A DNA stretch of 29,851 nt from positions 1-29,851 of IMG/VR virus record IMGVR_UViG_3300025276_000144. One strand, written 5' to 3'. This stretch comes from a virus. Numbering within the stretch: position 1 is the stretch's first letter; the number at the start of each line of letters is the position of its first letter. The notes beneath the pieces are model-generated. The model had not been told where the DNA came from and searched no databases. It worked only from the letters and a program-made list of their open reading frames with translations. Positions 2,613-7,670 of this stretch are shown piece after piece. Made by a program: the position numbers and the translations under genes.

Positions 2613-2767
2613 TATCTTTTGCGTTTATCTGGTTTAGAAACTCGTTCTGAATGCCAACCAGTCATTAAATAAAATAAATCCCATTCTGTTTTTCGTTTTA
2701 CATCTTTTTTTGCTTTAGCTTTCATGATTGCTACTGTTGCTGTTGGTACTACTTTTCTATTTTCCAT
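2612..2767 (-). CDS. Small basic protein, 51 aa
   Basis: A short gene from ATG 2767 to TAA 2612. It overlaps the MazG-like gene by 11 nt at its start, and its stop forms TAATG with the next start, so it is fully embedded in the operon. The product is very basic (KAKAKKDVKRK in the middle, KPDKRKR at the end) with a short aromatic centre (WDLFYLMTGWH). A nucleic-acid-binding role is possible from charge alone. No family recognised. Confidence 0.65.
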   Translation of the reverse strand: MENRKVVPTATVAIMKAKAKKDVKRKTEWDLFYLMTGWHSERVSKPDKRKR

Positions 2768-3053
2768 CTTTAACAAATGTTCCGTTTTCCATTTTACCTG
2801 TACGCTTAGAAATTACACTGTAAGCTTCGTCAATACAATCTTCTATTTTAACCCCTCCTAAATGTGCCAAGTTAGTTAAAACTACAACACAATCTCCTAT
2901 TGCATCAATAAATTCATCTTGATCTTTATTTAAAATTGCTTTAGCTAACTCTCCTGCTTCTTCATAAAGTTTTAAAGTTTGAGTTTTAGTATCTCCTTTG
3001 GCATAGATTCCTTTGTCTTCTGCCCATTCTCTAATTAGTTCGAACTTTTCCAT
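2757..3053 (-). CDS. MazG-like nucleotide pyrophosphohydrolase
   Basis: A 98-residue all-helical protein of the MazG-like NTP pyrophosphohydrolase superfamily, which cleaves (d)NTPs to (d)NMP and pyrophosphate using Mg2+. The metal site is visible as E31-E32-A-G-E35 on one helix and E47-x2-D50 plus D54 in the IGD on the next. The length fits a single MazG domain. The gene overlaps the hydroxymethylase gene by 19 nt. Phages that replace a DNA base often encode such an enzyme to supply the dNMP substrate or to remove the unmodified dNTP, so it probably works with the hydroxymethylase. Its nucleotide specificity cannot be read from the sequence. Confidence 0.85.
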   Translation of the reverse strand: MEKFELIREWAEDKGIYAKGDTKTQTLKLYEEAGELAKAILNKDQDEFIDAIGDCVVVLTNLAHLGGVKIEDCIDEAYSVISKRTGKMENGTFVKDGK

Positions 3054-3703
3054 AATTGTTTGTTGATTATTTGATTATTGTATAAATGTAAATTTGTTGC
3101 TTGATGGTAATAAGTGCCAGGTGCAACATTTAACCTAGACGCGCACATATCTAATAGTTTTGAAAACATATATTGATCATTGCAAAAACCGAACCAGAGG
3201 TCGTTAGAACGCATGTGAACACTCATATTTAGTTTGTCTTCTACTATTTGAAATTGTATTGTCGTTGTGCATGGAGTATCATACTCGTATGTGTCTATTT
3301 CTTTACCGTCATAAATACTAATAATGCATCTTCTTGAATCTTTATCTGCAGACAAAATATTCATTACTTTATTTATCTGATCTTTCCTTAGCCATTGCCA
3401 ACCGTAATTAGATCTTACTCTTCCATCTTTGTCTGCATGTGATTCCCAAATTTTAGGAACACTTCCGTAAATCTTTCTTAATTCTTCAATGTTAGGATCT
3501 CCTGATAAATACCATTGCCATTCTGCTTCTGCATATTTTCTTGAAAACTTTCTATGCTTAGTTTTAATTACATTGTCTAATGGATTTACGATAGTAAAAC
3601 CTACATCAAATAATGCTTGAGTGTTTCCATGTTTAGTTCCTTTTAACATTATTTCTTTAAGATAATACTCAAAAGCTTCTGTTGCATTTCTAAATTTATT
3701 CAT
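3035..3703 (-). CDS. Deoxynucleotide hydroxymethylase of the thymidylate synthase fold (T4 gp42-like)
   Basis: A 222-residue enzyme of the thymidylate synthase/dNMP hydroxymethylase family, which adds a hydroxymethyl group at C5 of dCMP or dUMP using methylene-tetrahydrofolate. Landmarks in order: E61 with WYLSGDP, SNYGWQW at 98-104, SRR at 123-125 (phosphate binding), catalytic C145 in DTPC, MRSND at 164-168, FGFCND at 171-176, and H206-L-Y208. The SNYGW, DSRR, RSND and FGF-x-ND blocks match T4 dCMP hydroxymethylase as I recall it better than they match true thymidylate synthases. D176 lies 31 residues after the catalytic Cys, the same spacing as C148 to D179 in T4, where that Asp selects dCMP. 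The substrate may therefore be dCMP, but dUMP cannot be excluded. Confidence 0.88.
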   Translation of the reverse strand: MNKFRNATEAFEYYLKEIMLKGTKHGNTQALFDVGFTIVNPLDNVIKTKHRKFSRKYAEAEWQWYLSGDPNIEELRKIYGSVPKIWESHADKDGRVRSNYGWQWLRKDQINKVMNILSADKDSRRCIISIYDGKEIDTYEYDTPCTTTIQFQIVEDKLNMSVHMRSNDLWFGFCNDQYMFSKLLDMCASRLNVAPGTYYHQATNLHLYNNQIINKQLWKSSN

Positions 3704-3706
3704 TGT

Positions 3707-4603
3707 CTAATTTTTGTTTGTTAAATTTTTGTCCCAATCTCTATAAGAATCTATTGCAGATTTGTCGAATCCTTCTGGGCAAAGTAATTCACCTGCTACA
3801 TTCCAAAACCAAATATTTCTTCCTGTATTTTTAGGTATGTATTTCCATGCTTTAGCATCATAGCTTTTTACAGTATTAAAAGGTGGTAAGATCTTTTCAT
3901 TTTGTGTAAATGCTAAAGGCTCTGAAATTATATCAGTTCTTCCAAGTTCTCCTGACTTCATGTTTCTAGCAACACATACTCCTTTCATTTCTGCATGAGG
4001 CAATCCTATTTGAAGTCCTCTAGTTAAAACTCCTGTACTAACAACAGTCCACATTTCTTCTGGTTGACTATATTTCTCACATAAATTATTGCAAATCCTA
4101 ACAAATCCTGCAATAACAAATGGATGATCTAAACCAAAAGGCAAAAACTTATATCCTTTTTCTTTAGCATATTCTCTAGCAATCTTATTTAGATTAGGCA
4201 TCGCTGCTATTCTCTCAAAGAATACTTCTTTTGGTCCTTCGTTAATTACATGAGCTTGATGGTCACTAATTTCTTTACTTGAAGGCATAAACAAAACTAC
4301 TTCTTTGTTATATAGATTTGCTAATTCCATAATTGCTGTTGGAGCTAATCCAACTCTTGGTGCAACGTAAACAACTACATCTTCTTTTATTTGACTAAAG
4401 AAAAACTCTGCTGCTCTTGTTTTTGTTCCACCTCTTAAGCTTAAGTCTTCTCTTACTACTTTTACTCCATCATGCTCTTTTACTTGCAGATCAGGCAATT
4501 TGCTTACAAAGTCTTTTGTTAGTTCTAAATAAGCTTCTCTGTTTTGATAAAGCATATTTATTTCTTTATTAATTCCGTCTTTTATATGTTTGTTGTGTGC
4601 CAT
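3707..4603 (-). CDS. PLP-dependent enzyme, fold type II-like, probable DNA base modification
   Basis: A 298-residue protein resembling the tryptophan synthase beta/ACC deaminase group of PLP enzymes. The key signature is REDLSLRGGTKTR at 51-63, where K61 would form the Schiff base with PLP. A hydrophobic strand then a Gly-containing turn follows (VVYVAPRVGLAPTA), and VVSTGVLTRGL at 187-197 may be the phosphate-binding loop. The C-terminal part has PPFNTVKSYDAKAW. It lies 3 nt before the hydroxymethylase gene and follows the aGPT-like gene, so it likely acts on an amino acid or amine destined for, or attached to, the modified base. PLP enzymes of another fold type are known in 5-hmdU hypermodification pathways. 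The fold assignment is moderate and the substrate is unknown. Confidence 0.6.
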   Translation of the reverse strand: MAHNKHIKDGINKEINMLYQNREAYLELTKDFVSKLPDLQVKEHDGVKVVREDLSLRGGTKTRAAEFFFSQIKEDVVVYVAPRVGLAPTAIMELANLYNKEVVLFMPSSKEISDHQAHVINEGPKEVFFERIAAMPNLNKIAREYAKEKGYKFLPFGLDHPFVIAGFVRICNNLCEKYSQPEEMWTVVSTGVLTRGLQIGLPHAEMKGVCVARNMKSGELGRTDIISEPLAFTQNEKILPPFNTVKSYDAKAWKYIPKNTGRNIWFWNVAGELLCPEGFDKSAIDSYRDWDKNLTNKN

Positions 4604-4634
4604 TTTTATTTACTTTTTAGGTTAATTGTTTTTG

Positions 4635-5696
4635 TTATTTTAATTTGCTTGCCCAATCGTAATATTTTTCATCTCCCCATATTTGTTTTAGTATTGTATT
4701 ATTCTTATAAACTTTTCCACCGTTCTTTGCTATATGATCTTTGCTCTGATATTCTTGAAAGTATCTTACAGGATCACAAGCTCTTGAATCTTCTACGTCA
4801 TATCGTTCTGCTCCGTATCTATTAGCTAAAAATCCTAAAGCTTCATTTATAAAATCAAATTCGCTCATCTTCTTATCCTTCTTAAACAATTGCTTAATAC
4901 ACTTAGTGGCATTAGTTCCAGCGTAAACTTTACTTTTACGATTAATCAAGTTTGGATAATATTCAGCTAAGTCCATTGCAAAAGCAGTTAGTATAAAGTT
5001 TTGCCTTTTAAATCCTCTTTCCATTAACCAATCATTTCCGTAGTCTGTTATTTCGTAAATAGAAAGTCCTGGGTTTCTAGTAATATACATTAGTAATTGG
5101 TTAACAAAGTTAAAAGAATATCTTAGTATAAAGTTCTTTAAGTGTCCTTTGTTCATACCTTCAAAAGTAAATTGAGGAAGCAAATATCCTTTGTTGTTTG
5201 TAAAAGGTATGTCTCTATCTTCTAATGCTTTTAGCCAATCTTCAATGTTAAACACTCCTTGTCTTATTTGATCAATTATCCAAAAGTTACCAAAGCCATG
5301 TGTTCCCCAAGGCTCTTGAAACATTCCACTTTTTGGTTTGTAATTAATGCCTGAACCACATAGTCTAAAAGCGTAAAACAAATAAACCCACTCTAATTGT
5401 CCTAAATTAAACCTTTTAAAATTTGTAAAGAATTTACCGTTACCTTTAACGTCTTTGTCTCCATGCCATAACGCTTCTAGCAACGAAGAAAATGCAGCGT
5501 ATCGTCTATGAGTTACGTCATAAATCGGTACGTAGAAAGCAAGATCGTCATTTACTTTTAACTTTAATTCATCTAAAGAAATATTCTTTTTGTTTCCTTC
5601 AAAATAAAATTCTTGTAGCAAATCTGTCTTCCTTCCATAGTCATCCATTGCTACTAAAATATCCTCGTCAATTAGTAAATTACCTATCTTTTCCAT
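4635..5696 (-). CDS. aGPT-Pplase-like protein (amino acid:DNA transferase family)
   Basis: A 353-residue mostly helical protein that I match by motif to the alpha-glutamyl/putrescinyl thymine pyrophosphorylase group. Members join an amino acid or amine to an activated hydroxymethylpyrimidine in DNA, displacing pyrophosphate. Conserved-looking blocks are HRRYAAFSSLLEALWHG at 63-79, FRLCGSGINYK at 110-120, GTHGFGNFW at 131-139, VYAGTNATKCIK at 257-268 and YDVEDSRACDPVRYF at 299-313. It sits between the PLP-like enzyme and the SGNH-like protein, beside a hydroxymethylase, which is the expected company. It is preceded by a 146-nt structured spacer, unusual for this operon. The family call rests on recalled motifs; the acceptor base and donor are unknown. 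Confidence 0.58.
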   Translation of the reverse strand: MEKIGNLLIDEDILVAMDDYGRKTDLLQEFYFEGNKKNISLDELKLKVNDDLAFYVPIYDVTHRRYAAFSSLLEALWHGDKDVKGNGKFFTNFKRFNLGQLEWVYLFYAFRLCGSGINYKPKSGMFQEPWGTHGFGNFWIIDQIRQGVFNIEDWLKALEDRDIPFTNNKGYLLPQFTFEGMNKGHLKNFILRYSFNFVNQLLMYITRNPGLSIYEITDYGNDWLMERGFKRQNFILTAFAMDLAEYYPNLINRKSKVYAGTNATKCIKQLFKKDKKMSEFDFINEALGFLANRYGAERYDVEDSRACDPVRYFQEYQSKDHIAKNGGKVYKNNTILKQIWGDEKYYDWASKLK

Positions 5697-5842
5697 ATTT
5701 ATTTCTGTTTAGTTTTGTTAACATTTCCTTATCAAGGGTTTTTGTTCTAATAAAGCTTCGCGCATTCTCGAGTATGTATATTTACCAAATCATGCTAAAT
5801 TGCTCTACGCGCTTTATTTTATTGTCTACGAGCATTCTAGCT
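5697..5842 (-). other. Structured intergenic spacer inside the modification cluster
   Basis: A 146-nt stretch with no convincing gene in an operon where genes otherwise touch. On the transcript, arms at 5830-5841 and 5794-5805 form a 12-bp stem with one wobble and one mismatch. A second possible stem uses 5811-5818 and 5749-5756 (8 perfect pairs). Because the pairings are interleaved in space, they could be alternatives. No T-run follows, so it is not a simple terminator. Only very short frames (15-17 codons) are present. It may control expression of the aGPT-like gene. Confidence 0.35.
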
Positions 5843-6817
5843 TTAAAACAAATTTAGTTGTTTTTTGTATATAAATTCATCTGCAAAATAGTAACTATGA
5901 GGAGCCAAATGAACACTTTGTCTTGCTTCCATTACTTCAAATTTTAACATGCCATATTCGTCTGAATTCTCATCAGGCCAAGATATTAAGTCGTAGTCTT
6001 CTTGCTTACAAAGATCTTTTAAAAGGTTATTAAAAATATTAACTATGTTTGATCTTTCTTTCCATGTACCGCAGAATGGTGTCTTCATATACATTCCAGT
6101 TCCTGGTATCTTACGACTAACATCTTCAATAGCAAGTAATTCAACTAAAGTTATTTTTTTGCAATTTAGATCTCTTAACTGATCTTGTAACTTTTCGAAG
6201 TAAGTCTTAATTAAATAGTCTTTTATATTGTTTCCTTTATAGTTCCTAAGTATATGATGCCTAACGTCAATGTTACCAGCATAAAATATTAATTCATCTA
6301 AATCTGTTCTAATATTATTTTCAAGACCTTCATTTAACATTCCAAATAAAGTTTTGCCATCATTTCTATCAATACCAAAACCTGGTTTGTAAACAGAAAT
6401 TGCATGAGAATCTCCATAGACTAATTTGTTTCTGCTAAACGTTGAACCAAAACCTATTTCTTTAGTAAAATCAAAATCTATCTTCCTTTTCTCACAAAAC
6501 TCTGAGTAGTCAATGAATTCACCGTAGTTTACTACTTTACCTTTAAAACTATTTAGCTTTTCTAATTTATCTAAGATTTGACGTGTAACGCCACCAAACA
6601 AATTGTATTGACCCATCTTATAGTTTACACCTTCATTAATAATTAACATCTCACATTGATCCCAATCATCTTTATCGGTCATAATTTTAACCTCACAGTC
6701 AAACTCGTTTTCAGCAATGCTTTTTATTACCATTGTCCAACCGCCGTTATGACTTGTTATTTTTTTTGCTGGGTTAGATAATATTCCAACCATTCCAATT
6801 ACTTTTTTACTTTGCAT
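5843..6817 (-). CDS. SGNH/GDSL-hydrolase-like protein of the modification cluster
   Basis: A 324-residue protein. The C-terminal two-thirds carry SGNH-type blocks: GDSH at 135-138 (S137 as nucleophile), GNID at 181-184 (N182), and a late His (H303 in VHLAPH). The first 130 residues form a separate alpha/beta-looking region beginning VIGMVGILSNP that I cannot assign. SGNH enzymes hydrolyse or transfer acyl groups on sugars, lipids or other small groups. Here the gene leads the modification cluster and overlaps the upstream gene by 11 nt, so trimming or acylating the modified base or its donor is a reasonable guess. An unrelated small-molecule hydrolase is also possible. Confidence 0.5.
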   Translation of the reverse strand: MQSKKVIGMVGILSNPAKKITSHNGGWTMVIKSIAENEFDCEVKIMTDKDDWDQCEMLIINEGVNYKMGQYNLFGGVTRQILDKLEKLNSFKGKVVNYGEFIDYSEFCEKRKIDFDFTKEIGFGSTFSRNKLVYGDSHAISVYKPGFGIDRNDGKTLFGMLNEGLENNIRTDLDELIFYAGNIDVRHHILRNYKGNNIKDYLIKTYFEKLQDQLRDLNCKKITLVELLAIEDVSRKIPGTGMYMKTPFCGTWKERSNIVNIFNNLLKDLCKQEDYDLISWPDENSDEYGMLKFEVMEARQSVHLAPHSYYFADEFIYKKQLNLF

Positions 6818-7229
6818 CTTTTTTAATTTTAATCATTATTGTATCGTCTCCTTGTCTATAATCTGCTGGCATAACTATTTCTCCAGTGTCTGTATCTACA
6901 ACAGCTTCTCCTCTTTCATGTGCTTTATATGCAGATTGATGCTTTTGTTTCAACATTTTTAGATCGTATTCTAAATTAACTACCTCAGCAATATGATCGT
7001 AGTTCCATCTTCCAGCTGATTTCTTAAGAGTAATACTAGCACCTAACATTTCTACTCCTGTTTTAGATTCGTTATTGTATTTAGATATTTCTTCTATTGC
7101 TAGATCTTTTATTTTCTTTTTAACTTCTTTAGCTAGATCTTCTAACTTTTTAAGCATAATAAAAGCCTCTAACGGATTTAAGTTACCTTGTAAGACTTGA
7201 TCTTCTAATAATTTAATCTCTTGCTTCAT
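6807..7229 (-). CDS. Conserved phage protein with N-terminal coiled coil, 140 aa
   Basis: A 140-residue protein with a helical, heptad-like N-terminal half (NPLEAFIMLKKLEDLAKEV) and a C-terminal half ending with a conserved-looking patch (DTGEIVMPADYRQGDDTIMI). I recall similar proteins from Bacteroidetes prophages in early replication and recombination regions, with no known function. It is the first gene after the palindrome-rich non-coding gap at 7230-7397, so it may be the first gene expressed from a control region there. Confidence 0.75.
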   Translation of the reverse strand: MKQEIKLLEDQVLQGNLNPLEAFIMLKKLEDLAKEVKKKIKDLAIEEISKYNNESKTGVEMLGASITLKKSAGRWNYDHIAEVVNLEYDLKMLKQKHQSAYKAHERGEAVVDTDTGEIVMPADYRQGDDTIMIKIKKDAK

Positions 7230-7397: not shown

Positions 7398-7670
7398 TCA
7401 GTCACTTTCTTTTTTTTGCATGTAATTATTTAAAGAACCTAAATAAGCAACAGCATCTAACAAATTATCTTCTTTGTAGTTATAACTATGTCTTGATAGT
7501 TTTAACGCAACCATGCATGCGTAAACATCTTCAGCGGTAAAATCTTTGCCTGTCATGCCTTTCGCTATATAAGCTGCTCTGTCCATTCCTTTTTCAAAAG
7601 GTCCGTACATTCTTTCTTTCTCTTGTTTTCGATCGTTAATGATCTCATCTGCTTTTTTTAAAATATTCAT
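7398..7670 (-). CDS. DUF6378-type phage protein
   Basis: A 90-residue helical protein that matches a phage family I recall as DUF6378: R-Q-x-x-x-x-x-Y-G near the N-terminus (RKQEKERMYG), then a block equivalent to V-x-x-x-M-V-A-L-K-L-S-R at about 48-60, then DNLLDAVAYLG near the end. The function is unknown; it is usually seen among nucleotide- or DNA-metabolism genes of phages. It starts 2 nt after the wHTH replication gene and is followed by the palindrome-rich gap. Confidence 0.7.
   Translation of the reverse strand: MNILKKADEIINDRKQEKERMYGPFEKGMDRAAYIAKGMTGKDFTAEDVYACMVALKLSRHSYNYKEDNLLDAVAYLGSLNNYMQKKESD

Follow-up and report, generated by a model that had tools for sequence, protein, structure and literature searches.

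The virus record IMGVR_UViG_3300025276_000144 of IMG/VR is a linear stretch of 29,851 bp, referred to below, in its whole length, as the window. Five genes follow each other on its minus strand at positions 2757-6817, and the question is which DNA base, if any, they modify. An earlier note, made from the sequence, had described this row as a cassette for hypermodification of a DNA base; indeed, the set is conserved across loci, and one of its members is homologous to gp52 of phage M6. On balance, the row is probably related to the thymidine hypermodification pathways but based on hydroxymethylcytosine, and would produce a hypermodified cytosine for the DNA of the phage itself. The proteins, named here by single letters, and the residues discussed below are as follows (aa, amino acids; NTP, nucleoside triphosphate; dCMP, deoxycytidine monophosphate; PLP, pyridoxal phosphate; pLDDT, predicted local distance difference test).

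M, 2757-3053, minus strand: MazG-type NTP pyrophosphohydrolase, 98 aa (PF03819, 3.5e-8; EExxE...ExxD-type motif of the family consensus)
T, 3035-3703, minus strand: hydroxymethylase of the thymidylate-synthase family, 222 aa, predicted to be of the dCMP type (PF00303, 3.4e-29; alignment to T4 gp42; Asp/Asn comparison)
Cys145 of T, 3269-3271, minus strand: catalytic cysteine (PCT motif)
Asp176 of T, 3176-3178, minus strand: placed by alignment to T4 gp42
P, 3707-4603, minus strand: fold-type-II PLP (PALP-like) protein of the M6 gp52 family, 298 aa (phrog_7093, 4.3e-35; hhalign, 97.5%)
Lys61 of P, 4421-4423, minus strand: predicted Schiff-base lysine (conserved in 37/37 sequences)
K, 4635-5696, minus strand: all-helical protein, 353 aa, with a fold like that of PUGT and AGOG glycosylases (AlphaFold pLDDT 89.7; PUGT 8z2n, Z 9.0; no profile match)
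S, 5843-6817, minus strand: SGNH-fold protein, 324 aa, SGNH domain at about 124-316 (AlphaFold pLDDT 93.1; SGNH hydrolases of PDB, Z about 12)
Ser137 (6407-6409), Asn182 (6272-6274) and His303 (5909-5911) of S, minus strand: kept in 54/54 sequences
D, 7398-7670, minus strand: DUF6378 protein, 90 aa (PF19905, 6.8e-13; in 74 of 76 loci selected by S)

Conservation of the gene set

All five open reading frames were confirmed, and the earlier assignment of M to the MazG-like proteins stands. The genes are tightly packed: the gap between S and K is 146 bp, that between K and P 31 bp and that between P and T 3 bp, and T and M overlap by 19 bp. The DNA of the cluster resembles that of other phages only in short pieces, and neither K nor S has any match to a Pfam family.

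Viral contigs were scanned with alignments, a scan with the single sequence of S having given nothing. At least 577 stretches encode relatives of K, and at least 593 encode relatives of S. The dominant gene orders, (DUF6378)-S-K-P-T-M and S-K-P-(DUF6378)-T, are nearly always on one strand and were seen in about 160 IMG/VR loci. Many of these loci overlap as parts of a single contig, and some contigs were reached by both the S and the K scans, so that not all of the loci are independent. The 76 loci chosen by S alone contain K (74 loci), P (68), T (62) and DUF6378 (74); conversely, S is present in 67 and P in 71 of the 73 loci chosen by K alone. This is far beyond chance, and the five genes form a real, conserved cassette. 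The DUF6378 gene also belongs to the conserved set; comparison of the DUF6378 and MazG profiles by hhalign gave no link. The protein encoded at 6807-7229 (140 aa, overlapping S by 11 bp) is outside this set; it has a weak match to DUF4435 (1.9e-3, below the cut-off).

A second clade was found in T4-like contigs with the order T-K-(X)-P-S. Its 85 loci contain P in 79 cases, S in 77 and T in 69, and its K shares only some 26% identity with that of the window. The additional protein X seems paralogous to K, as it is linked by hhalign to window-type K (70-85%) and not to the T4-like K (less than 1%). In some T4-like cassettes S is followed by a homologue of C5-cytosine methylases (PF00145, 3e-18 in L014), at L014:6737-7933 and L016:7977-9185; it could be an ordinary methylase or a CmoX-like enzyme. 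A tblastn search of 50,697 phage records and a pattern scan of the GTDB genomes both gave no relative of K.

The hydroxymethylase and the starting base

The residue at the position of Asp179 of the T4 dCMP hydroxymethylase gp42 decides between cytosine (Asp) and uracil (Asn) in the thymidylate-synthase family. In the HMMER alignment this position is occupied by Asp176 of T, whereas thymidylate synthases have Asn. Thus T, with its catalytic Cys, agrees with the T4 gp42 type and lacks the Asn of the M6-type hydroxymethylases, which act on deoxyuridine monophosphate (dUMP). The same was seen in an alignment of 140 rows, comprising 7 M6-type reference enzymes and 133 T homologues from cassette loci. 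Among the latter, 128 have Asp, three have a gap, and two have Asn; these two carry the ThyA motif LGLPFN and are ThyA paralogues. All 7 references (M6, FP1, Sonora, Pam3, nACB2, Ab18, LuckyBarnes) have Asn, as do the twelve commonest motifs, those listed, from 57 M6-type loci. In the T4-like cassettes Asp was found in 69 of 69 T homologues. In a phylogenetic tree, which gave long-branch warnings, the dUMP-type enzymes are grouped alone (support 99/95), apart from the cassette enzymes.

The earlier note had also called T a hydroxymethylase. However, the 5-hydroxymethyldeoxyuridine (5-hmdU) intermediate suggested there is not supported, given the Asp that T shares with gp42 of T4 and of phage 44RR and that sets it apart from the M6-type dUMP enzymes. 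This residue indicates that the starting base is probably 5-hydroxymethylcytosine rather than 5-hydroxymethyluracil. The closest relative of T among the phage records is from Bacteroides phage BF503P2 (L179:7989-8669, 46% identity) and is also of the Asp type; S, K and P were not detected in this phage.

One alternative is a hypermodified thymine or uracil made via 5-hmdU, as in phages M6, ViI, SP10 and phiW-14. In that case either T would take dUMP as its substrate, or a deaminase would turn hydroxymethyl-dCMP into hydroxymethyl-dUMP ahead of incorporation. This would agree with the homology of P to M6 gp52 and with the fold of K, which resembles a 5-phosphomethyl-dU glycinyltransferase, both pointing to thymidine pathways. 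Genes for dCMP deaminase near 69 cassette loci and for dUTPase near 59 would suit it as well; neither is visible in the window itself. On the other hand, the dCMP-type Asp is found in T of two divergent clades, the 5-hmdU DNA kinase and its partner HMUDK_hel were not found in the cassette loci, and S is present in Aeromonas phages whose gene 42 is of the dCMP type. We consider this alternative distinctly unlikely.

The PLP, helical and SGNH proteins

The match of P to the Pfam family PALP (PF00291, 1.2e-3) is below the Pfam cut-off. However, P and M6 gp52 fall into the same PHROG, phrog_7093, and the comparison of P with the M6 gp52 family by hhalign gave 7.6e-12. All 37 aligned sequences have Lys61, within GGTKTR, and the STGVL loop. 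Thus P has the signature of fold-type-II PLP enzymes, a Schiff-base lysine with a glycine-containing phosphate-binding loop, and is predicted to bind PLP; by these comparisons it is a remote homologue of M6 gp52. In M6 the PALP protein gp52 is encoded beside the amino acid:DNA transferase ADDT (gp51), a radical SAM protein (gp53), the 5-hmdU DNA kinase (gp54) and HMUDK_hel (gp55), roles that were taken from Pfam names and citing papers. The M6 PLP enzyme is reportedly a decarboxylase. The fold-type-II-like enzyme recognised in the earlier note is present, but, as M6 has a homologue of it, it does not distinguish the cassette from known pathways. PALP genes similar to P occur in other settings as well. 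In Erythrobacter phage ZS04 (L020:2326-4764) one polypeptide combines such a domain with a DNA methylase and a ParB-like domain, and in Microcystis phage Mae-JY30 (L019:4474-6792) a separate gene adjoins ParB-like and methylase genes.

A structure-based search, which the earlier note had suggested for all five proteins, was made with the models of K and S and led from S to SGNH hydrolases and from K to PUGT and AGOG. The SGNH assignment of S is thus upheld by the predicted fold. For the aGPT-Pplase-like assignment of K, some support comes from the predicted fold and from a short sequence motif, and none from profile searches. A sequence search of solved structures with the profiles of K, P and S gave nothing useful.

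The top solved structure for K is PUGT (206 residues, 4.1 A), the 5-phosphomethyl-dU glycinyltransferase of phage PaMx11, closely followed by AGOG DNA glycosylases. The best matches in BFVD include two viral models named amino acid:DNA transferase (E 1.4e-13 and 2.4e-4). A short C-terminal motif of K, EDxxxCDxVR, looks by eye similar to IExxLCEFDK in HMUDK_hel and to VETVLCKWK in ADDT. It is plausible from the model that K works like an amino acid:DNA transferase. Membership of K in the ADDT family itself is not supported, as both profile searches and profile-profile comparison were negative: Pfam scans of 25 K members and of 26 K/X members contained no ADDT (PF18724) and one weak match to HMUDK_hel (0.03).

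In the model of S the SGNH domain is preceded by an N-terminal part, and the matching hydrolases include PatB. Ser137, Asn182 and His303 were joined by Glu297 as invariant residues among the 54 sequences. S as modelled thus combines the SGNH fold with the conserved Ser, Asn and His of that superfamily. Homologues of S were found in 43 phage records, of which 38 are from Aeromonas phages. In phages avDM5 and 44RR the S domain is fused to a C-terminal HMUDK_hel-like part (Pfam 0.0037; hhalign 63%), and in phage 25 it stands unfused; gene 42 of all three is of the Asp type. Since M6 pairs HMUDK_hel with the P-loop kinase, the fusion suggests that S may take the place of the kinase. In the 225-kb Tenacibaculum phage PTm1 the S homologue (L359:3781-4800) lies between ribonucleotide reductase genes.

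These observations bear on a second alternative, in which S and K form one unit that adds an acyl or other small group to 5-hydroxymethylcytosine and no amino acid is involved. K would give S a platform on which the base is flipped out, a role that the HMUDK_hel-like part may have in 44RR; P, rather than acting on DNA, would make or modify a small-molecule donor. S and K are almost always adjacent, the fused S of avDM5 and 44RR occurs without K and P, the fold of K is also near that of AGOG DNA glycosylases and K is no member by ADDT profile, and SGNH enzymes, such as PatB, are known for acyl transfer as well as hydrolysis. However, the top solved match of K is an amino-acid transferase and no glycosylase, and P, which is found in the cassette as regularly as S and K, belongs to the gp52 family, which adjoins ADDT in M6. 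This alternative seems unlikely to us.

It might also be argued that the cassette serves nucleotide metabolism or makes plain hydroxymethylcytosine only, with S, K and P acting on free nucleotides, RNA or host targets rather than DNA bases. T, M, dUTPase and dCMP deaminase are indeed enzymes of the nucleotide pool, and the S homologue of PTm1 has ribonucleotide reductase genes as neighbours. However, the structural neighbours of K act on DNA bases, the family of P is found in a DNA hypermodification cluster, and S is fused to the HMUDK_hel-like part in hydroxymethylcytosine phages. The chances of this last alternative appear very slim.

A candidate pathway and its relatives

If the cassette indeed modifies hydroxymethylcytosine, the following order of steps may be proposed. 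T would convert dCMP to 5-hydroxymethyl-dCMP, with M, and perhaps D, hydrolysing deoxynucleoside triphosphates and thereby supplying dCMP and lowering the level of unmodified dCTP. Cellular kinases would form hydroxymethyl-dCTP, to be incorporated by a polymerase, probably that of the host, as no polymerase was recognised in the window. Once the DNA has been made, S, perhaps in place of the 5-hmdU DNA kinase, would prime the hydroxymethyl group of 5-hydroxymethylcytosine, e.g. by acylation, and K would join an amino acid or an amine to it. Finally, P would trim the attached amino acid, probably by decarboxylation.

Several observations weigh against this reading. The Asp that normally precedes the His by three residues is missing from S; Gln300 stands there (Gln in 52/54 sequences), and the invariant acidic residue is Glu297. 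A Z of 9 is modest for a helical protein such as K, the AGOG glycosylases score nearly as high, and hhalign of K against ADDT or HMUDK_hel gave at most about 1% with small, large and combined both-clade alignments. K and P were not detected in Aeromonas phages 44RR, avDM5 and 25 despite the presence of S, so that priming for K is not a necessary role of S. The S homologue of PTm1 comes from a phage in which no clear dCMP-type hydroxymethylase was seen. The deaminase and dUTPase genes beside many cassettes would suit uracil chemistry too, and the overlap among the loci mentioned above reduces the number of independent cases.

The cassette shares with the thymidine hypermodification systems of M6 and ViI (PMC6449724, PMC11955845) a hydroxymethylase of the thymidylate-synthase family, an amino-acid:DNA-transferase-like protein, a fold-II PLP protein (gp52 in M6) and the clustering of these phage genes. 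The hydroxymethyl group on the DNA of M6-type phages is phosphorylated by a kinase before further modification (PMC6449724). Unlike these systems, the cassette has a hydroxymethylase that, judging by its sequence, is of the dCMP type, an SGNH protein, and a K that only remotely resembles ADDT; within the cassette loci, the scope of this comparison, profile searches found no homologue of the 5-hmdU DNA kinase HMUDK, HMUDK_hel or ADDT. Thus the SGNH protein, listed in the earlier note as a difference from known pathways, remains one, together with the cytosine-type hydroxymethylase and the lack of a recognisable 5-hmdU DNA kinase.

Among the cytosine systems, the glucosylated hydroxymethylcytosine of T-even phages, the pentosylated one of RB69 and the modified cytosine of Thanatos also involve a dCMP hydroxymethylase that has Asp at the corresponding position and further decoration of the 5-hydroxymethyl group. 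However, the conserved set of the cassette includes amino-acid-type and SGNH proteins instead of a glycosyltransferase. The CmoX/CmoY pathway (PMC12783734) leads to 5-carboxymethylcytosine and to the glycine amide of this base; it uses carboxymethyl transfer together with an amide ligase that depends on ATP. This too is a hypermodification of cytosine in phage DNA that ends in an attached amino acid, as proposed for the cassette; the latter differs in starting from a hydroxymethylase. The Aeromonas T4-like phages 44RR, 31 and 25 share with the cassette the S family and a gene-42 dCMP hydroxymethylase and have no glucosyltransferase genes. K and P, not detected in 44RR, avDM5 or 25, set the cassette apart, as does the fusion of S to a HMUDK_hel-like part in 44RR and avDM5. 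No earlier account of an SGNH- or amino-acid-type hydroxymethylcytosine pathway was found among the best-ranked titles in the open-licence literature. The final base may well be new, as the earlier note had supposed.

The window has no end repeat. It encodes a large terminase with the TerL_ATPase and TerL_nuclease families, whose best matches (about 48%) are to phages of Firmicutes; the host is left undecided by these matches. The two end genes of the window, for an HNH protein and the small terminase subunit, are adjacent in the related contig L005, and thus the window probably is a nearly complete genome. A small phage of about 30 kb, as suggested earlier, is therefore plausible, although the contig is linear. 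Candidate promoters and terminators were not in excess over those in shuffled sequence.

To our knowledge, every amino-acid-type hypermodification that builds on a hydroxymethylated base is found on thymidine. Were the proposed pathway true, its cytosine counterpart would be present in hundreds of uncultured phages and would constitute a new class of DNA base. It would also bring SGNH and PLP enzymes with a new chemistry on DNA, and would give phages a further means of evading restriction and other defences that target DNA. More tentatively, and with considerable doubt, we suggest that 5-hydroxymethylcytosine in phage DNA is decorated with amino acids or amines by a widespread pathway not described before, in which activation of the hydroxymethyl group falls to an SGNH enzyme and not to a P-loop kinase; the same S family would explain the protection of hydroxymethylcytosine in Aeromonas phages such as 44RR. 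Phages 44RR, 31 and 25, and also RB69 and JS98, were noted to have gene 42 and no glucosyltransferase genes, and the possibility of another modification of hydroxymethyl-dCMP in such phages was left open (Petrov 2010, PMC2993671). The S family is a concrete candidate for a non-glucosyl modification of hydroxymethylcytosine in the cultured Aeromonas phages, and makes this question testable.

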